NCBI GenBank assembly: GCA_002069125.1
Contig: MVZN01000002.1
Coordinates: forward strand, 62,001 to 126,000
From: Spirochaetes bacterium ADurb.BinA120
GTDB lineage: Bacteria; Spirochaetota; UBA4802; UBA5368
Length of the DNA stretch: 64,000 bases
Direction of reading: 5' to 3'
Within the stretch, counting starts at the first letter, position 1. Every line of letters starts with the position of its first letter. Shown here piece after piece: positions 5,793 through 19,513 of this stretch. Both the position numbers and the translations under genes were made by a program. Below the pieces are notes generated by a model. The model was not told the DNA's origin. It worked only from the letters and a program-made list of their open reading frames with translations, and did no database searches.

Positions 5793-6827
5793 TTACGCCA
5801 TTATAGGGGAATCGATCGCGAACATCCCGTACGACAGATCGAACAGGGGGCTCGCCGCTACGCTCTTCGAAACCCTGTGGCTTTTAAGGGCTCTATCGGC
5901 CGCGCCGATTAGCGGATAAATCCGTTTTATCTTTGTGATGGGGTTGAGGCGCGCCATCTCAACGAACGCTTCGCCCGAGCGCGGGGGAACCGATGCCTTC
6001 CGAAGCGCTTCCTCCTCCGTTTCTCCGCTACGAACCGCCATGTGGAAGCGTTCGATGGAGTCCGCCCGACGTGAAATCTGGTTCAAGATTAAAAGCTCGG
6101 GGCAGTTGTTTTCAATCAAATTTTTAAGCCTGGCGAACGAGGACCTGTCCCCGCAAAACAGCGCGTCCACGAACTCGAAGACCGAGCCCTCCTTCTCCCC
6201 GCCAATGAGCGACAGCGCCGTTTCCTCCGTCAGCCTGTCGAGCCCAGAGTTGCGCAGCTTTTCCAGTGCGCCGTCCACCGCCCGTACGTTCCTTCCGAGC
6301 AGGTCCACAAGGGAGCGCGCCGCCCCCGCGTCGATGCTTATTCCCTCCGCCTTGAGCGTGCGCACGATGTACCCCGAAAGATCCTTTTCAAAGGGCGGCC
6401 AGAACTGGAACACCCCCATCCCGGAAACGGCCTGGAGCCCCGCGGGCGGCCTGTTGGCCCGTGAGGTCATCACCAGGGTTGTGGAATCCGGCAGCGACTC
6501 CAACACCTCGCCCAGAAGCGCCGCGCCGGAGGCGGAAGCCAGCGCGGAATCTATATTCAGCATAACACAAACGCGCGCGTTTGAAAACATGGAACGGGAG
6601 AGGGCGAAATCCGCGGCCTGCATCAACTCGCCCGTCTCGCAGTGGAAGCGGCCCAGCGCATGCTCCGCTCCGTCTCCCTTCAGCACGATGTCCGCGATTC
6701 TCCGGACAGCCTTGTCCTTCTCGCCCTCGTCCTCGCCGAGAAAAAGGTAAACGCGGGCCGGACTCTTTTTCGCAAGCTCGGCGTAGAGGTCCCTGGCTAC
6801 CGGCAGGCGTTTTCTGTCCATTGTCAT
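5793..6827 (-). CDS. holA: DNA polymerase III subunit delta
   Basis: 344 residues, the usual length. HolA opens the beta sliding clamp in the clamp-loader complex. Visible family features are the N-terminal VYLFLGEDEGEKDKAV, the AAA+-like core with degenerate nucleotide site (VCVMLNID, then TLVMTSR), and the C-terminal helical collar (LLILNQISRRADSI, LNPITKIKRIYPLI). The ATG at 6827 overlaps the stop of the upstream lipoprotein gene by four bases (ATGA), so translation is probably coupled. An lptE-holA order is also found in enterobacteria, which supports both calls. Its partner holB is at 21007. Confidence 0.92.
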   Translation of the reverse strand: MTMDRKRLPVARDLYAELAKKSPARVYLFLGEDEGEKDKAVRRIADIVLKGDGAEHALGRFHCETGELMQAADFALSRSMFSNARVCVMLNIDSALASASGAALLGEVLESLPDSTTLVMTSRANRPPAGLQAVSGMGVFQFWPPFEKDLSGYIVRTLKAEGISIDAGAARSLVDLLGRNVRAVDGALEKLRNSGLDRLTEETALSLIGGEKEGSVFEFVDALFCGDRSSFARLKNLIENNCPELLILNQISRRADSIERFHMAVRSGETEEEALRKASVPPRSGEAFVEMARLNPITKIKRIYPLIGAADRALKSHRVSKSVAASPLFDLSYGMFAIDSPIMA

Positions 6828-7450
6828 TTTCTGCCCTTCTCCACCGGCGTAAGGAGTTCTTTATAGCTCCCCCGGATGGCCTGGCTGGCTATGCGTTTTG
6901 CCAGCGCCTCGACCGTCCTGTCAAGCGCCATCGACTCGGACACCACCGGCGGCTCGATGTCGGAGAACTCCTCAAAGGCCTGAATCTCCCGCTCGAAGAA
7001 GATCTCCCTTTCCCTGTTCCGGTCATACAGGCGCAGTGAGGCCGTAATCCTTGTACGCTTCCATACCACGAGGCCCATCTCGTTGTATTTTAACGGCCTT
7101 GTCTCGAGACCCCTAACGGCCCCCTCAAGGATGAGGTCCGCCTCGGAGCCGGGGCCGACTATCGCAAGCCGCCCGTCCGCCGCAATAAGCTCGCGTACAC
7201 GTATTACGAGCTTTGTCCTCGCGTCCAGAGCGCCTGCGGAACCCATAAATTCCCGCACCAGAATCCTGTTGGCCTCGCGGGGGACCACCGGCTCTCCGGT
7301 TATTCCTTTCAGCACCTTGCCCACGGAGACCCCCGGCCCGCCGGGAGACGAGGCACAGGCCCATGCTGCAGCCAGGGCCGGGAGCAGATACCGAATGGAC
7401 AAGCGGCGCGTTTTTATGGGCCGCGCGCCGGTTTTTTTTAAAGTCTTCAT
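6824..7450 (-). CDS. lptE: LptE-like LPS-assembly lipoprotein
   Basis: 208 residues from the ATG at 7450; an in-frame ATG at 7480 is possible but gives an over-long signal n-region. A basic N-terminus and hydrophobic helix end in AAAWAC, a loose lipobox. The mature part has the LptE pattern: alternating beta strands with TRITASLRLYDRNREREIFF, then a helix with SESMALDRTVEALAKRIASQ. LptE plugs the LptD translocon in the outer membrane. Position directly before holA agrees with this. Sequence conservation in this family is poor, so the call leans on context. Confidence 0.7.
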   Translation of the reverse strand: MKTLKKTGARPIKTRRLSIRYLLPALAAAWACASSPGGPGVSVGKVLKGITGEPVVPREANRILVREFMGSAGALDARTKLVIRVRELIAADGRLAIVGPGSEADLILEGAVRGLETRPLKYNEMGLVVWKRTRITASLRLYDRNREREIFFEREIQAFEEFSDIEPPVVSESMALDRTVEALAKRIASQAIRGSYKELLTPVEKGRK

Positions 7451-7540
7451 CGGTTCGTACCGATAAATTGAACAGATCATTTTACACTCAACGGTCTTCC
7501 CGTCCGCCGACAGGCATAATCGAGAAGGCTTTTCATGACA

Positions 7541-7563
7541 AACGGGATATTAAGTATCCCGTT
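7541..7563. terminator. Rho-independent terminator, possibly bidirectional
   Basis: AACGGGATA (7541-7549) pairs with TATCCCGTT (7555-7563) around a 5-base loop. The plus strand continues with seven Ts; the minus strand has TTT after the stem and an A-run before it. It lies directly downstream of the stop of the minus-strand glycogen gene (7567), which it probably terminates, and upstream of the lptE gene. Confidence 0.65.
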
Positions 7564-7566
7564 TTT

Positions 7567-10500
7567 TTATTCTACTGCACATATCATTTCCTTGATCGCG
7601 TAAACCTCACCGATATAGCGCCGCGCCGGACGGTCCCAGTGGTAAATGGAGGATCTGGCGTTTTGTCCCGCCATATGGGCGGCCACGTCGTCGCTTGAGC
7701 GGACGAATTGATGGGCGCGCTCCATGGCGTCATAGAATGCCGTGGCATTGAAGTCGGTAAATAGAAAGCCGTTTCCCTCCAGCATTCCATCCTTCATGCG
7801 CACGGGAAAGACCGTGTCCCGAAGCCCCCCCGTGGCCCTTGCCACCACCAGGCAGCCTGCGGCGAACGCCTCCAGCTGCGAAATGCCGCCAGGCTCGCTC
7901 ATCGAGGGCATGCAGAAGATATCGGAAGAAAAAAGCGGAACGGCGATGTCCTGAAAGCCGAACGAAACGCTGACATTGCCGGGATAATAGCGCGAGAGCA
8001 TATACATCCCGTGGGCTATCTCCTCCCCCCTTCTGTCCCCCGACGACACCGAGCCCCCCATGACCGCCTGGTACCCCAGGGCGGCGAAAAGGCCCCTGGA
8101 AGCGTCCAGGACCAACTGGAAGCCCTTCTGCTCGGTTATGCGGTGTATCATCGAGAAGAGCACCACGTCCGGATCGACATAGAGTCCGCGCTCGAGCTGG
8201 AGCATCATCTTGTTCCTCGCGCGAATCGCCGCAAACCGCCGCGCCTCCCCGGGAATCCCCTCCACCGCCTCCGCGCCCTCCATCATCTCTGGCCAGCGCG
8301 AGGCCACCTTTTCCTTGAGCGCGCCGTTCTCCTCGAAGGCCTCCAGCAGGCGCGGATACTGCCGCTCGACGAAGCCGGAATGCCGGAACGAGTCCGACAG
8401 CCTTTCGGTAAAATCCCTCCCGACGGCGTTACTTATGCCTATTACATTGGACAGGATGCGCTCCAGGCCGTCACAGGCGTACTCGATCTGGCGCGCGTAG
8501 CTGGGGCTTACGGTAATCACCCGGTCCGCGAAACGAATCCCGGTGGCCATGCAGTTAAGCCGCTCGTGGTGCACCGGATCGGCAAAGTCCACGGCCCTCC
8601 ACGAGGGAAGATTGAAAAGCTGGAACAGGTCGAAGCCCCGTTCGTGCCTGTGGTATGAATCGAAATACTGCCAGCCTCCGTTATGAATGACATGAAGAAA
8701 TGTTGTCCGGGCGAAATTCGGGTTGGACGCATATACGTGATCGCTACGCACGATCCCGTTGAAAAGCCCGGTATAGGCGTCGTTGGTAAAGGTGAAAAGC
8801 GGCCGCAGGCCGAATGTCGCTATCACCTCGGCGCAGGCCCGGGCGAAAGCCACGCGGCGGCGGAGTTTCTCCTCGGAGGTCACCCCCCAGTACAGGCCGT
8901 CGAAAAATTCGTGGTGGTCCAGCAGGTAGAATGTCACCCCGTCGACCGTCCCGCTGTGCACCCCCACCTCGTATTCGGCGTTCATTATCTTGAACCGGAC
9001 GTTTTTACCGGTATAGCGAACAGAATGCTTCTCCATGGCCAGCCGCATCTTGGATACGGCCTTTTCGTCCCCATTGCGCCACAGTCCCGTTATTACGTAA
9101 ACCGTTTCACCGAGCGCGGCGAGCTCCCTGGGAAGCTCGTATACCACGTTTGCCAGTCCTCCGCTCTTGGAGAAGGGATCGGCCTCCGCCGACATGAATA
9201 CCATCGAATCCGGCCGGTTATGCGACTCCAGGGCCTCGCCGAGCAGGCGGACGCGCTCGTCGGGCGAGGAGCTCATTCTGCCGAAAAAGGACAGGGCGCG
9301 GCGGGCATCGAGGGCGCCGGTGCGAACGGCATGAAAAACCGCCCTTTTCAGCCCCAGCTCGAGGTGGTATCGGTTGCCCTCCCATAGCATGGAAACCAGA
9401 TGGCCCAAGACATAGGACTGAAAGGCGTCGAAGGACGAACACGCGGCCGTAATCTCCCGAAAGGCGAAGTTGGAAGCAAAATGCTCGACGTTCGAGATGG
9501 AGCACATCCGGAAAAACGAATCCTTAAGGAAATCCCGGTACCGGCCGTCGATATCGGCGACCTCCTCGAGCCTGAGAAGCTTCACCCGGTCCGTGAACGA
9601 AACCACGGTGTCGATACGCGAGGCCTTTAGCTCGCGCCCCGTGAAGTGGGCGAAATGGCCGGTAATCGGCGAATATACCGGGTCCACGACGCGGTAAAGC
9701 GAGTCATCGTCCAGCGGCAGCACCGGATTGTCGAACTGTATGGAGGCGGCCTGATTGGATTCGGCGAAATTGAACACCCCGATCCAGATGGCCGTATCGG
9801 TGAATTTGACCGACGCCACGACGCTGGTATTGTTCGCCCAGACTAAGTATCCCCGGCCCTTTTCCCGCCTGTGGAATTCGTACCATTCTCCATAGAAGCG
9901 CTCCACGCTGCGGTGCGCCGCGTACTCGAAGCTGTTCCAGTTGACGAAGATGTTGTCCAGGAATACCTTCCATCCCTCCCCCTCGGCGCTGCCCTCGTAA
10001 TCCATGACGATGTTGTTCATGAATGTGGTCACGCCCACGGCCGCGCGAAGCCCCCTGTGCCCGAAGGTGTTGAGCGCGCGCCGCTCGTCGTGGTTTCCCA
10101 GGATGCCCAACAGTTCCGTACCCTTCGGCATCACCGACGGAAAATAATTGTCATAGATGTGGTAGATCTCACGCACATCGGTTGTGCCGTGGATGATGTT
10201 CTCGCAGATCTTGAAGAGCGCGGAATTGTAGGGTATGATTCCGACACGCGTAAGAAAGCGCTCGTGTCCCCAGTAGCATTCCGCGATATTGATGAAAAAG
10301 TCACGCCCGAGCCGGCGAAGCGTCCTCTCCACCGCGACCATGAGATAATAATGCAGGGGAATGGCGATAAGGTCGCGGCAGGCCGAGTCGTAATATCCAG
10401 TGGTAATAAAATGCCCGTCCTCGCGGTCGTTCACGACAATGCCGCCCTCCAGGCCCTCCTCCGCGCTTCGCGGCACCCCGTACACCGACGGATAATTGTT

Positions 10501-12441
10501 CTTCTTCATCATTATGGGGACCGCGTGAGCCGAGTCGAAACGTATGCCGTCGATGTCGAAGCGCTCGATGAGCGTCGTTATGGAGCGCTCGAGCCATTCC
10601 CACACCTCGAACTTCCGGTAGTTGAAAAGCTTGCCGTCGTTCCAGCTTCCGTAACGACCGTCGGTGGATGCGCGGACAACGAGGTTGCCGCCCTCGTCGT
10701 AGCACTGCACCACGCAGTCATCGGGCACCTCGAGGCTCCGTCGATTGAGGTGCGGAACCACGTCCACGATCACCTTGACTCCGCGCCGGTGCGCCTCGGA
10801 GACCAGCTCGCGGAATTCCGCCTCGCCGCCCAGCGACGGCTCGATTTCCACAAGGCTCATCGGGGAGAACGGAGAGGGCGACGAAGCCTCCGGCGCCCAG
10901 TCCTCGCGGTTCGAGCCCCGCCTCTGGACGCCCAGGAGGTACAGGGCCGTTATGCGGTAGCGTCCGATCAGATCGTCCAGATGCGCCGTGATGTCCGAGA
11001 AACGGCCGAGCCGTATTACCTCCCCGTGTTCGTTGTATACCAGGCCCGGGTGCCCGCCGCCGTCCATCCAGTAGATACGGGTATGCCCGTGGATATCGGG
11101 GAAGATCTCCAGAATGATCTCGCCTCGCACGTCGGGAATGACGTTGATGCGCCCGCTGGCTCCCGGATGGTGCACCCATTCGCTTTTCTTTTTTTTCCGA
11201 AAGACGACGTAATCGAAGTGTCCGTAGTCCTCGAAGATAAAGGACGCCGTAAACCGACCGGAGGAGGCGTCGTATTCCAGTTCGATGTCCCACGAGTCGA
11301 TGTCGCGCTGCGTGGTGACGCGCCCCGACTCCGCGTGCCGGTACAGGCGGACAAAGTAGGCGGCGCCGCGCGCGGGGAGTTCGAACTCGAAACGGTGCGA
11401 TGAGCCCGCCGTAAGCGTCGCAAAGGCCGTCGCCAGTGGAGCGTCGAATTCCTTGGGGGCGAATATCCTTTCCAGGAGTATGTTCGCCCTGTCGCGCACC
11501 TCGTGGATGTCGTGCCCGGAGGCCGCCACGAGCAGGCGAAGCGTTTCACGCAGGGATTCCTCATCGCCGGACTGTTTATAGGCGCGCGCAAGGCGCTCGA
11601 TCGCGGAGATCGCTTTCAGGTTGGCCTCGGCGTTAAAATTCATCTCATTCCCGGGCAGGCGCTCGTCCAGAAGCCCGACCAGCCTCCGGCGGTCCGAGAC
11701 CCTAAAGGGCCTTGGCGCCCTCTTCGGCGCGGCCTCCTTGAATTCCAGGGCCGCTATGGTCGATACGCGGATAACCTCATCAACGAGCGCGTTAAGCGCG
11801 TGTGAGTATTCAACCGGGAATATCTCCACGTGCGAGTATCCAGTTTCGATGGCGCGCGCCTCTATGAGGAGGAGCTTTACAAAGGCGTCGAAAAAAACGC
11901 GCTCGCCGCGCTTCGATTCGTAGGCGAGAGTATCGAAGATGTTCATCCCCAGGTACAGCGACGGGATTTCCTCCCATATAGGCCCCAGCCCCACATGCGA
12001 TATGACGGTGGTCTCGTTCGAGACATGAAAAATGGTGGGCACCCCGGGCCTCTCGCGGACGATGACGAAACGCCGTCCAGTAAGCGAAGCCAGTCTTATA
12101 TCCTCCGCCAGCGCCATGTGTACGAACATCAACGCGGAGACCAGACGCGAGGAGAGGCGGGTGTCGCTTAGAAAAAGGTTCTTCGCGGTGCCATCGCCGC
12201 CCGCCGCCGCGTCGAAAACGGCGTTTTTCATGGCGAGCAGCTCCTCCCGGTAAAGGGCGATAGGATCCCCCGATCGAATCCTGGCGACAAGGGAGGCGTC
12301 CACTGAAAAGAAAAAGCACCGGTTATCCGCGAACGCGGCGGCAATCTCGTCCTTTACCCTTCCGTCGGAGACAAGGTGCTCGTCCCTCAGCCGGTAACGG
12401 CTCAGGCTGCTCTGCGCCGATGTTCGTGTTATTTCAGCCAT
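7567..12441 (-). CDS. Fused GH13 amylase-family domain and GT5 glycogen synthase
   Basis: 1624 residues. Residues 1-340 are an unrecognised helical region. About 345-450 looks like a beta-sandwich resembling CBM48. About 455-960 is a GH13 barrel: DVVPHLN (region I), GIRFDSAH with nucleophile Asp636, AECYW with acid/base Glu721, and GNHDERR with Asp785, so the catalytic triad is intact. About 1078-1624 is a GT5 glycogen/starch synthase: FSKSGGLANV with ADP-glucose-binding Lys1092, and EPGGISQLEA followed by RATGGLRDTV near the C-terminus. GT5 enzymes extend alpha-1,4-glucan from ADP-glucose. The GH13 part could branch, debranch, trim or prime the chain; its reaction cannot be told from sequence. 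Monocistronic. Domain calls are firm, the combined role is inferred. Confidence 0.9.
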   Translation of the reverse strand: MAEITRTSAQSSLSRYRLRDEHLVSDGRVKDEIAAAFADNRCFFFSVDASLVARIRSGDPIALYREELLAMKNAVFDAAAGGDGTAKNLFLSDTRLSSRLVSALMFVHMALAEDIRLASLTGRRFVIVRERPGVPTIFHVSNETTVISHVGLGPIWEEIPSLYLGMNIFDTLAYESKRGERVFFDAFVKLLLIEARAIETGYSHVEIFPVEYSHALNALVDEVIRVSTIAALEFKEAAPKRAPRPFRVSDRRRLVGLLDERLPGNEMNFNAEANLKAISAIERLARAYKQSGDEESLRETLRLLVAASGHDIHEVRDRANILLERIFAPKEFDAPLATAFATLTAGSSHRFEFELPARGAAYFVRLYRHAESGRVTTQRDIDSWDIELEYDASSGRFTASFIFEDYGHFDYVVFRKKKKSEWVHHPGASGRINVIPDVRGEIILEIFPDIHGHTRIYWMDGGGHPGLVYNEHGEVIRLGRFSDITAHLDDLIGRYRITALYLLGVQRRGSNREDWAPEASSPSPFSPMSLVEIEPSLGGEAEFRELVSEAHRRGVKVIVDVVPHLNRRSLEVPDDCVVQCYDEGGNLVVRASTDGRYGSWNDGKLFNYRKFEVWEWLERSITTLIERFDIDGIRFDSAHAVPIMMKKNNYPSVYGVPRSAEEGLEGGIVVNDREDGHFITTGYYDSACRDLIAIPLHYYLMVAVERTLRRLGRDFFINIAECYWGHERFLTRVGIIPYNSALFKICENIIHGTTDVREIYHIYDNYFPSVMPKGTELLGILGNHDERRALNTFGHRGLRAAVGVTTFMNNIVMDYEGSAEGEGWKVFLDNIFVNWNSFEYAAHRSVERFYGEWYEFHRREKGRGYLVWANNTSVVASVKFTDTAIWIGVFNFAESNQAASIQFDNPVLPLDDDSLYRVVDPVYSPITGHFAHFTGRELKASRIDTVVSFTDRVKLLRLEEVADIDGRYRDFLKDSFFRMCSISNVEHFASNFAFREITAACSSFDAFQSYVLGHLVSMLWEGNRYHLELGLKRAVFHAVRTGALDARRALSFFGRMSSSPDERVRLLGEALESHNRPDSMVFMSAEADPFSKSGGLANVVYELPRELAALGETVYVITGLWRNGDEKAVSKMRLAMEKHSVRYTGKNVRFKIMNAEYEVGVHSGTVDGVTFYLLDHHEFFDGLYWGVTSEEKLRRRVAFARACAEVIATFGLRPLFTFTNDAYTGLFNGIVRSDHVYASNPNFARTTFLHVIHNGGWQYFDSYHRHERGFDLFQLFNLPSWRAVDFADPVHHERLNCMATGIRFADRVITVSPSYARQIEYACDGLERILSNVIGISNAVGRDFTERLSDSFRHSGFVERQYPRLLEAFEENGALKEKVASRWPEMMEGAEAVEGIPGEARRFAAIRARNKMMLQLERGLYVDPDVVLFSMIHRITEQKGFQLVLDASRGLFAALGYQAVMGGSVSSGDRRGEEIAHGMYMLSRYYPGNVSVSFGFQDIAVPLFSSDIFCMPSMSEPGGISQLEAFAAGCLVVARATGGLRDTVFPVRMKDGMLEGNGFLFTDFNATAFYDAMERAHQFVRSSDDVAAHMAGQNARSSIYHWDRPARRYIGEVYAIKEMICAVE

Positions 12442-15967: not shown

Positions 15968-18646
15968 ATGATCAAAAAAACCTCCATTCTTACGCTGGCT
16001 GTACTCGTATCGATAATAACGAGCGGCTGCACAGGAACGAACGCTTCATCACAGGGGGCGATACAGTCCGCCTATAACGAGCTGTACGGGAACGTGGAAG
16101 GGGAAAGGCTTAACATCGTCTCCATAATCGATAAGCTGTCTCACCCCCAAGCCGGTCCATCGGATGCCAGGATCAAGAAGGCCGTATATACGATCGATTC
16201 CAAATACAAAAAGGATAAACTCATCTTCAAGTCCCTCGACTACAAAGCCCTGGGCGGGCAAAAGCTCGCCGTAGTTGGGAAAAGGGGCGTCAAACTTTAC
16301 CGCACCATGGAAGCCAGGGAAACAATAGCGGATCTTCCTCTTGGAGCCGTGCTCCCTCTTTTGCGAGAAATCAAAAACAAGGGCTACAGGGACGAGGACG
16401 GATACTGCGACGGGATTTTCGATTTCAAAGACGAAAAAAACTATTGGTACGAGACCTCATTCGAAGGCAAAAAAGGCTTCGTGTTCGGATCCTTTCTCGT
16501 GTTAGGCGAGGATTACGATGTATTCGAATCCTCATATACTCAGGCCGCCGTGGTAAACGACGAGCTCTGCGTAAAACACAAGGACAACGAGACCGAAAAG
16601 TACGTCAAGCTCGGCTATTATTACACCAAACCGCAAAAGGCCCCCTCCTTTGTAAATTTTAACGGCCGCATGAATCTAGCAAAAAACTCCCAGGCCTCCC
16701 TTATAAAGAACAGGATCGCGCTGGAAAAGGTGGCATACTCCGAATATGAGCCGTTTTTAATGTTAGGATACGAAAGCAACCGGCCGGACGACATGCTGGC
16801 CCTGTACAGCATGATGCATAACGACAGGACCGCGACGAGCTTTATTAGCACGGACCTTCTGGTCCACTCCCTTCATCTGCTTTTCGACCGCATGCTCCAG
16901 GATACCGAGACCAGGAGGCTTTTACCCATACTTAAAACGCTTACTAAGGCCTACTACGGCAGAATAGCCGACCTGGAAAATAATGACGCCAAAAAGCACC
17001 GCGCCTACACCGAAGCCATCGAGAAGATGAAGAAGTACTTCCTGGTGGCAGGGGAGCTCCTCAACCTGAAGCTCGCCCCGCGCTCGTCATACCCTGCCGA
17101 TGTATCGGCCGAAATAGCCCTTATAAATGCCGCTGCCGGGTTTAACACCTCACCCATCTTTGGGTACAGGGAAGACTACTCCCAGTTCAAAGCGAGAGGG
17201 CACTATACAAAAAATGACGACTTAAAAAGCTACTTTAAGGGTATGGTGTGGTTCGGAAGGCTGCACTTCTACTGCGTCAGCAAACACCCTGACAGGGCCA
17301 TGCTGGAGAATTCAATAAGGCTTACCCGCTCGGCCTTACTTCTTACAAAAATCGCCAGAGACAACCCCGACATCCTCGCCTCGTGGCGGGCGCTTTCCCT
17401 TCCCATCGGATACATGGTGGGCGAGTCGGACGATTATACTCTCGACCAATACCTCTCCATATTTAGAGGCGTGGATTTCGCCAACTTCGAAAAATGGGTC
17501 GATGATAAAAAGAACATTCAGACCTTTATAATCAGGGCAAACGCCGAGCTAAAGCCGCCGGCGATTTCGGGAAACACGCTTATGCAGAGCGGTGTGCTTT
17601 CGGCCAACAGCCCGGAGGCCCCGGCGGGCTTCCGGTTCCTCGGCCAGAGGTTTACGCTCGATTCGTTTATTCATAACGCGCTTTCCAGCCCCAGACTTGG
17701 CGGTAGAAATATGGTAAAAGGGCTCGACGTTATGGGCGCCTTGGGAAGCAGGCCTGCGGACAGGCTGCTCGGCGAAGAAAAGAAGCGCTATCCCGGATAC
17801 GAGGCCGCTTACAGAGAGCTCGGCAGAACCGTCAATGGATACTCCGAGCTCGACTGGAAAAGGACCTTCTACAACAGCTATCTAAAAATAATCGGAGAGA
17901 TCTCCCGTTTCGATTCGAGCCTGCCGTTTTATTTTACGGACGGCGACGCCTGGAACACCAAATCCCTGCTTACTGCGCACGCCGCATGGGCGGAGCTACG
18001 CCACGATACCATACTCTACGTAAAGCAGAGCTATGGAGAAAAGGCAGGCCCCGGCCCCTGCAAGACATTCAGCGTCGAAAAACCTAAAAGGCCCATAGGG
18101 TACATAGAACCGAACTTAGGCGCACTTTATTGGATTCGATATATATCCAGAAGCGGAGCCGGGTATCTCGCCGACCTGGGCCTTATGACCGAAGAATACG
18201 CAACTAAGTTCAGGGAATTCTCCGAACTCATCGACGACGCCGTCGTTATTGCGGAATTGGAGGCGGCGGACAAAAGGGTAAGCGATAGCCAGAACGAGTT
18301 CATCTATTCAATTCCCTATAGGCTGTCGAATATCGTCGTCCCCATCGACGGCAACGTCGCCGACACCGAGGAGCTCAAGATGGCCCTCATCGCCGATGTG
18401 TACACCGATTCGGAGAACGGGCTGGTGCTCGAGGTGGGAACGGGCATTCCATACAGGATGCACATCGCGCTTAACGACGGACAGGGCGGAAAGAGGATAG
18501 CGACCGGCTATATTTTCAGCTATTATGAATTTACCCGGCCCATGTCCGACCGCCTGAACAACGAAGAGTGGAAGAGGATGGTTTATTCTAAAAAACCGGA
18601 AACCGACAGGCTCGGGCCCGGCTGGGCGAAAAAAATCCTGCCCTGA
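15968..18646 (+). CDS. DUF3160 family lipoprotein
   Basis: 892 residues. The signal peptide ends in a lipobox, IITSGC, with Cys21, so the protein is expected to be lipid-anchored in the envelope. The body matches DUF3160: residues around ATSFISTDLLVHSLHLLFDRML are the family hallmark, followed by a long helical region and a C-terminal beta region (YRLSNIVVPIDGN). The first 180 residues contain an SH3-like stretch (KLYRTMEARETIADLPLG) ahead of the main domain. Biochemical function is unknown. Its stop is three bases before the start of the Memo-family gene, so the two form an operon. GAGG precedes the ATG. Confidence 0.85.
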   Translation: MIKKTSILTLAVLVSIITSGCTGTNASSQGAIQSAYNELYGNVEGERLNIVSIIDKLSHPQAGPSDARIKKAVYTIDSKYKKDKLIFKSLDYKALGGQKLAVVGKRGVKLYRTMEARETIADLPLGAVLPLLREIKNKGYRDEDGYCDGIFDFKDEKNYWYETSFEGKKGFVFGSFLVLGEDYDVFESSYTQAAVVNDELCVKHKDNETEKYVKLGYYYTKPQKAPSFVNFNGRMNLAKNSQASLIKNRIALEKVAYSEYEPFLMLGYESNRPDDMLALYSMMHNDRTATSFISTDLLVHSLHLLFDRMLQDTETRRLLPILKTLTKAYYGRIADLENNDAKKHRAYTEAIEKMKKYFLVAGELLNLKLAPRSSYPADVSAEIALINAAAGFNTSPIFGYREDYSQFKARGHYTKNDDLKSYFKGMVWFGRLHFYCVSKHPDRAMLENSIRLTRSALLLTKIARDNPDILASWRALSLPIGYMVGESDDYTLDQYLSIFRGVDFANFEKWVDDKKNIQTFIIRANAELKPPAISGNTLMQSGVLSANSPEAPAGFRFLGQRFTLDSFIHNALSSPRLGGRNMVKGLDVMGALGSRPADRLLGEEKKRYPGYEAAYRELGRTVNGYSELDWKRTFYNSYLKIIGEISRFDSSLPFYFTDGDAWNTKSLLTAHAAWAELRHDTILYVKQSYGEKAGPGPCKTFSVEKPKRPIGYIEPNLGALYWIRYISRSGAGYLADLGLMTEEYATKFREFSELIDDAVVIAELEAADKRVSDSQNEFIYSIPYRLSNIVVPIDGNVADTEELKMALIADVYTDSENGLVLEVGTGIPYRMHIALNDGQGGKRIATGYIFSYYEFTRPMSDRLNNEEWKRMVYSKKPETDRLGPGWAKKILP

Positions 18647-18649
18647 CAA

Positions 18650-19513
18650 ATGGGCCTGCGGATTTTCAAATGCTCCGTTCTCATGCTCTCCCTCGTCGGC
18701 TCATGCGGGCGCGGGGACGTGGCCGACTGCATATCGAACACGACGGTAGTCTCCGAAAAGCAACTAATGGAGCTCAGCTCATCGGCGCCGCTGCCGGCCG
18801 GCGTGGACTTTAAGCCGGCATCGCGCATCAGGCCTTTCAGTGGGACCACAAGCCACCACCTTCTGTGCCGCCATGTGATCGATAGATGGTTTCAAAACCT
18901 CGCCGAGCTAAGGGAGGTGCGGACCTTCGTCATCATAAGCCCAAATCATGGGAGGCTTGGCGCCCTGCCTGTTTCATTGACCTGCCGTAGCTGGAAGACA
19001 GCCGGCAAAACGACGCGAACCAACGTCGACCTCGTCGGAATAATTTTAAGGGAGCTCGAAATCCAAACGGACGACGTCGCCTTTGGAAACGAGCACGGCA
19101 TCGAAGCCCTCCTGCCCTTTGTAAACAAATATTTTCCCAAAGCCGATATCGTGCCCATCCTGCTGGATGAAAAGCAAAGGCATGTGCCGCTCATCATGAA
19201 GCTGACGGACTCTCTGCATCGCATTTTTAAGGCAGACCAAAAAGCCTTCCTTCTGCTTTCGGTGGACTTTTCCCACAGGGGCGACGCAGCTATGACCGCC
19301 AAAAACGACCGAAGATCGCACAAAGCGCTCGCCTCGATGGGAAAGGGAAAGAGTGCCGTATCCGACAACAACGGCGGCCTCATGGTAATGTTCGAGCTTT
19401 GCGAAAGGATGAATGTCGCAAACACTCATTTCTTCTGCCATACCGATTCGGCAAAATTCGAGCCGGAAGCGGCCCTGGACATAACGAGCTATTTTTTCAC
19501 CTTCCAGTATTGA
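18650..19513 (+). CDS. Memo-family protein (AmmeMemoRadiSam B) with lipoprotein signal
   Basis: 287 residues. Memo features: an N-terminal His pair (TSHHLL), SPNHG, NEHGIEALLPF, SVDFSHRG and FFCHTD. These align in order with the metal/active-site His and Cys residues known from human MEMO1 (H49, H81, H192, C244). Unusually, the N-terminus is hydrophobic and ends in LVGSC (Cys19), a plausible lipobox, so the protein may work outside the cytoplasm. Memo proteins resemble extradiol dioxygenases; a redox role with copper or iron has been proposed for the family. It follows DUF3160 by three bases and converges on the AMMECR1 gene with a 17-base overlap. Confidence 0.85.
   Translation: MGLRIFKCSVLMLSLVGSCGRGDVADCISNTTVVSEKQLMELSSSAPLPAGVDFKPASRIRPFSGTTSHHLLCRHVIDRWFQNLAELREVRTFVIISPNHGRLGALPVSLTCRSWKTAGKTTRTNVDLVGIILRELEIQTDDVAFGNEHGIEALLPFVNKYFPKADIVPILLDEKQRHVPLIMKLTDSLHRIFKADQKAFLLLSVDFSHRGDAAMTAKNDRRSHKALASMGKGKSAVSDNNGGLMVMFELCERMNVANTHFFCHTDSAKFEPEAALDITSYFFTFQY

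Follow-up and report, generated by a model that had tools for sequence, protein, structure and literature searches.

A protein of 1624 residues, encoded on the minus strand (7567..12441) of the window, i.e., the whole stretch of 64,000 nucleotides that was analysed, joins a GH13 (alpha-amylase family) domain and a GT5 (glycogen/starch synthase) domain in one chain. It is probably (rough probability 0.6) an alpha-glucan synthase of the cytosol that carries a GH13 remodelling domain in cis and serves as the glycogen synthase of its lineage. We infer its activities, its product and the cooperation of its domains as follows: (i) the GT5 domain, as its fold and motifs suggest, would add glucose from nucleotide-glucose to alpha-1,4 chains; (ii) the GH13 domain, tethered via a helical linker, would cut and rejoin these chains, most likely by glucan transfer, with branching favoured among the possible activities; (iii) the N-terminal helical domain may have a part in glucan binding, regulation or oligomerisation. 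About half of the members of the Spirochaetota order to which the window belongs would have no recognisable glycogen synthase other than the fusion, and for the branching enzyme that they lack its GH13 domain would be the best candidate; in the other members, including the window's own genome, it would work alongside the classical GlgA route.

The ORF starts with ATG and is a single frame without interruption, in agreement with its translation and its orthologues, and the opposite (plus) strand contains stops over the same stretch. ORF, Pfam and translation bear out the one-frame fusion of 1624 residues described by an earlier, sequence-only reading, the strand being corrected to minus. The residues quoted by that reading (Asp636, Glu721, Asp785, Lys1092 and EPGGISQLEA) are all correct in the translation.

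Domain borders were drawn from Pfam and from two AlphaFold2 models, one for residues 1-1078 (mean pLDDT 86.4, pTM 0.73) and one for residues 425-1624 (mean pLDDT 80.8, pTM 0.69); the models are weakest in the first residues and, next to these, in stretches of the GH13 domain. All the features are on the minus strand. The N-terminal helical domain (residues about 18-330, 11452..12390, pLDDT mostly 80-95) has no family by sequence: the window protein gives no Pfam match at E≤1 in this part, no match is consistent among 25 members, and the best PDB sequence match is no better than E 0.27. It is followed by a beta-sandwich seen as strands in the model (residues about 336-440, 11122..11436), placed before the GH13 barrel as in GlgE and neopullulanases. 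The structural alignments with GlgE and neopullulanases begin near model residue 336, and the beta-sandwich is predicted to belong with the GH13 part. The 340 N-terminal residues had been regarded as unknown; this holds for residues about 18-330, and the beta-sandwich has to be assigned to GH13. The GH13 catalytic domain itself covers residues 441-961 (9559..11121). The linker (residues 962-1078, 9208..9558) is modelled as helices, with pLDDT mostly about 91-96, and the GT5 domain covers residues 1079-1620 (7582..9207).

The fusion is detected in 44 of the 46 genomes of the order. It is one clean ORF in 37, lies in two pieces in four (contig breaks or gap), is present as contig-end parts in two and has an in-frame stop in one; it is absent from two genomes, one of which is 73% complete. 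Full-length or partial fusions are also found in two further families of the phylum in the sample (f10 and f28). When named genomes were scanned for two short motifs, a pattern that distant relatives in other phyla could escape, 49 fusion loci with 48-89% identity were obtained. Nearly all are labelled as spirochaete metagenome bins, to which Candidatus Marispirochaeta associata must be added; the non-spirochaete labels are one Stahlbacteria and one «uncultured bacterium». Among phage and plasmid records none covers 80% of the fusion, and only GT5 parts match among the rows listed.

Residues were counted over 49 rows: the window protein and 48 relatives taken from the named collection. One further row (L073), whose frame is broken, was left out. 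The locus with the in-frame stop (L062) was left out of alignment A2 and its pre-stop part retained in A3; L082 was left out of both, so that 39 of 40 and 42 of 43 stretches were used. Alignments A4 and A5 contain 24 and 25 chosen loci of the 49, plus the window. The GH13 triad, i.e., D636 at the nucleophile position (GIRFDSAH, 10534..10536), E721 at the acid/base position (NIAECYW, 10279..10281) and the third catalytic residue D785 (GNHDE, 10087..10089), is unchanged in the 46 rows that cover it. In the GT5 domain, K1092 of the KSGGL motif (9166..9168) is kept in 46/46 covering rows and E1516, the first residue of EPGGISQLEA (7894..7896), in 44/44. All the other rows have gaps at these positions, and substituted catalytic residues, which would have told against the sequence-only reading, are found in none of the covering rows.

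GH13 is the most conserved domain of the fusion: the mean identity of the relatives to the window protein is 72% for GH13, 65% for GT5, 50% for the N-terminal part and 39.8% for the linker (956-1078). For the closest pair, dN/dS is 0.034 (GH13), 0.066 (GT5) and 0.129 (N-terminal part). As judged from these sequence ratios, all the domains of the fusion are under strong purifying selection. A misassembly or a frame artefact could be suspected, since the gene is in pieces or at contig ends in six genomes and has an in-frame stop in one. This explanation is rejected, its probability being practically nil: the fusion is not an assembly artefact because it is a clean ORF in 37 of the 46 genomes of the order, in independent assemblies, and dN/dS is low in every domain. 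The gene is not generally split in relatives; the splits correspond to contig ends, gaps and one in-frame stop.

The GT5 domain is clearly identified. PF08323 matches with 131.7 bits (cut-off 22.7, the Pfam gathering score) and PF00534 is also found in this part. The top Foldseek matches are starch/glycogen synthases (3vue, E 5.3e-27, TM to target 0.81; 2qzs, TM 0.80), and the KxGGL lysine and EPxG glutamate motifs are intact, K1092 and E1516 having presumably the role of these motif residues in other synthases. The fusion shares fold and motifs with bacterial GlgA, from which it differs in that its GT5 domain is fused, forms a separate long-branch clade and scores under the cut-off of the curated GlgA model of ADP-glucose type, TIGR02095 (213.1 bits vs. 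328.45). In a tree that also includes 23 stand-alone GlgAs (10 from the order; rooted at the midpoint for drawing only), 17 GT5 domains from fusions group in a single clade (support 100/100), whose branch has a length of 2.61 changes per column. The mean identity between fusion GT5 and the 23 GlgAs is 26.7%, vs. 39.2% among those GlgAs. Fusion GT5 is thus a line of its own, and a recent capture of a resident GlgA is rejected, the clade standing apart from all 23 GlgAs, those of the order included. The statement that GT5 needs a primer does not agree with the part consulted of the review PMC11046441, which sets bacterial GT5 against the GT3 of eukaryotes, for which a primer is required.

The GH13 domain is recognised by the PF00128 score, the Asp/Glu/Asp triad and the barrel fold. 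PF00128 reaches 38 bits (cut-off 22) over the whole protein, no single stretch passing alone. With GH13 plus the beta-sandwich, GlgE chains account for 12 of the 13 best Foldseek E-values; branching enzymes occupy ranks 41-47 of the list for the GH13 part. In a second structural comparison TnAmyB (4gkl; Z 22.2, rmsd 3.2, 403 residues aligned), the L. plantarum amylase 3dhu (Z 21.9), cyclic maltosyl-maltose hydrolase, neopullulanase-like enzymes and GlgE are all at Z about 20-22 over residues 436-961. GlgB is not among the best 50 rows of this comparison, which excludes nothing. The fold class is thus clear and the subfamily is not, because GlgE, neopullulanases and TnAmyB tie in the second comparison; by sequence, no curated subfamily is matched.

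A beta-sandwich ahead of the GH13 barrel is modelled in the fusion as it is known from GlgE, whose chains give the best Foldseek E-values, while neopullulanases and TnAmyB tie with GlgE in the second comparison. The fusion differs from GlgE in being joined to GT5 and in that PF11896 (GlgE N/S domain) is none of the five Pfam families that match the fusion protein at E≤0.001. The maltosyltransferase GlgE is, we take it, GH13_3. A review, in the part consulted, presents GlgE as a glycogen-building transferase. The similarity of the GH13 domain to GlgB is distant, around residues 530-640, and far under all GlgB cut-offs: the two curated NCBIfam cut-offs of 741 and 463.95 bits are approached only to 34.7 and 27 bits, respectively. 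Profile comparison favours generic amylases over GlgB.

Glycogen genes were counted with curated cut-offs in the 46 genomes of the order, which are draft genomes, a fact to be kept in mind for every absence. Stand-alone GlgA is over the cut-off in 24 genomes, GlgC in 17, GlgP in 29, GlgX in 38 (plus 3 fragmentary) and GlgB in none; the GH57 branching enzyme is found in 14 and a GT3 synthase in a single one (G015). GlgE (PF11896) is matched in 8 of 392 genomes of the phylum, none of the eight belonging to the order. The fusion occurs without GlgA in 20 genomes, 14 of which are at least 90% complete. These 14 have neither GlgC nor the GH57 branching enzyme, nor GlgB, GlgE or GT3 synthase, and yet GlgP is present in 12 and GlgX in 13 of them. 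As far as sequence models can recognise such enzymes, the fusion is the only glycogen synthase of these 14 genomes and no recognised branching enzyme is left.

GlgX follows the intact fusion: 41 of 43 genomes with it have GlgX vs. 0 of 3 without (Fisher p 6.6e-4, all genomes of the order, phylogeny ignored). Among genomes at least 90% complete the figures are 28/28 vs. 0/2 (p 0.0023). The genomes are treated as independent in this test, which depends on three exceptions, one of them 73% complete. The association of GlgP with the fusion is weak (p 0.045 for all genomes, 0.10 for those of high quality). Branching is favoured for the GH13 domain because the debranching GlgX accompanies the fusion where a branching enzyme of known kind is absent. 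The same company, together with the absence of GlgB over the cut-off from all 46 genomes, weighs against a GH13 domain that is a hydrolase or a disproportionating 4-alpha-glucanotransferase, shortening chains or priming GT5, with branching left to an unrecognised enzyme; besides, a free hydrolase within a synthase would be wasteful unless regulated. Such a hydrolase or disproportionating enzyme is a close rival because sequence puts the domain nearer generic amylases (the best profile match) than GlgB, and hydrolases and maltogenic amylases (4gkl, 3dhu, neopullulanases) are among the closest folds; we hold it quite possible, if short of probable. The sequence-only reading had the GH13 domain acting on the nascent chain, which it may do; no subfamily can be assigned to it.

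GlgP and GlgX can also serve imported maltodextrins. It could be argued that they do so in the fusion-only genomes, the fusion being unrelated to storage glycogen, and further GH13 genes of alpha-glucosidase and sucrose-phosphorylase-like kinds are indeed present in genomes of the order. This is improbable: in two families, genomes whose fusion is lost or interrupted lack GlgX too. Only three genomes of the order, G015 (96% complete), G037 (94%) and G044 (73%), have no intact fusion, GlgX is found in none of them, and the first two belong to different families. G037 has an in-frame stop inside GT5, at position 1112 (L062, G037:C27), and none of GlgX, GlgP and GlgA over the cut-off; the stop may be a sequencing error, or the whole glycogen pathway may be decaying. 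G015 has neither fusion nor GlgX and is the sole genome of the order with a GT3 synthase. There, a 1425-residue ORF (L149:2625-6902, G015:C63) combines a GT3 glycogen synthase with an alpha-glucan phosphorylase (GT35), and GH57 and GT4 genes adjoin it. This ORF looks like a Bacteroidetes-type replacement, GT3 synthases being reported in Bacteroidetes in the part consulted of PMC11046441.

The genome of the window has, besides the fusion, separate GlgA, GlgC, GlgP, GlgX and GH57 branching enzyme genes. A search for separate glgA and glgB genes had been recommended: GlgA is there, and GlgB is over the cut-off nowhere in the order. The sequence-only reading had proposed a self-sufficient or self-regulating glycogen machine. 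The conserved one-chain fusion with selection on both active sites is borne out, and so is its link to glycogen metabolism, to which the company of GlgP and GlgX points; self-sufficiency has to be given up for the window's organism, and is plausible in no more than about half of the order. The stand-alone GlgA gene of this genome and a cofactor-independent phosphoglycerate mutase gene overlap by four bases (L123:4782-6275 and 6272-7963, G000:C3).

Since GlgA, GlgC and a GH57 branching enzyme are already present in the window's genome, another product is possible there. More generally, the fusion might make a special alpha-glucan (e.g., a primer, a modified glucan or one of the cell surface), storage glycogen being left to the classical enzymes; its GH13 domain would then trim or transfer chains as proposed for the fungal alpha-1,3-glucan synthase Ags1. 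Some genomes of the order, including that of the window, have GlgA and GlgC besides the fusion, and its GT5 domain is a separate deep clade; both facts go in this direction. So does the S. pombe protein Ags1, which, in the part consulted of PMC5753165, likewise carries a GH13 amylase-like domain and then a glycogen-synthase-like domain in one polypeptide. In the same source Ags1 is a membrane protein, with GH13 outside, the synthase domain inside and a multitransmembrane part. The fusion has the same order of domains, GH13 then GT5; unlike Ags1 and related Ags proteins, it has a helical N-terminal domain without sequence family and, by hydropathy alone, no transmembrane or signal stretch (highest 19-residue mean 1.39). 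A membrane-bound enzyme of Ags1 type is rejected on this ground, and the special glucan is made unlikely by the same observation, by the retention of GlgP and GlgX in genomes without any classical synthase, and by the fusion-less, high-quality genome G015, which has a GT3 glycogen synthase instead.

The glycogen synthase with a GH13 remodelling domain that we prefer can be extended: a single polypeptide with elongating and branching activities would have replaced GlgC-GlgA-GlgB, the donor being probably other than GlgC-made ADP-glucose. This extended form is possible and, on the whole, rather doubtful. In family f7, GlgC is over the cut-off in none of 20 genomes, and the GlgC-like match of one member (G035) is a nucleotidyltransferase-phosphomutase fusion, nearer to mannose-1-phosphate guanylyltransferases; the donor may therefore not be GlgC-made ADP-glucose. 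The ORF in question (L134:1175-3670, 831 residues) joins a nucleotidyltransferase to a phosphomannomutase/phosphoglucosamine-mutase-like domain, and ORFs of about 830-880 residues with similar GlgC-model matches are widespread in the order. Such an ORF might possibly be the donor-making enzyme where GlgC is absent.

In descriptions of bacterial glycogen synthesis, elongating and branching are divided between separate enzymes. A conserved synthase plus GH13 remodeller, alone in many genomes, would let the effect of tethering on branch spacing and particle form be tested directly. The fungal GH13-GT5 architecture would also gain a soluble counterpart in bacteria, and there would be an explanation for the retention of GlgP and GlgX in spirochaetes without GlgA and GlgB. 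GT5 and GH13 enzymes are known as such; here they stand in a bacterial arrangement whose lineage-wide role is likely. A bacterial GH13-GT5 fusion was not found described in the literature searched, which includes the parts consulted of PMC11046441, PMC3534657, PMC5753165 and PMC5608401. The first of these, a prokaryotic review, mentions in the part consulted other glycogen-enzyme fusions, i.e., TreS-Mak and the GlgB-MalQ of Neisseria suica, and none of GH13-GT5 type. Both, as well as the GT3-GT35 ORF of G015, bring enzymes of the glycogen path together in one chain, and none of them pairs GH13 with GT5.

The neighbours of the fusion are housekeeping genes, those behind it resembling lptE and holA in many relatives, and give no functional support. 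In the window, a class I adenylate cyclase gene (PF01295, PF12633; 3041-5782, minus strand) has about 340 residues beyond the matched part, and a neighbour similar to it is present in 7 of 26 loci that were compared. The window also contains, on the plus strand, a gene for a DUF3160 protein (15968-18646, 537 bits), directly followed by a gene similar to Memo / AmmeMemoRadiSam system protein B (18650-19513).
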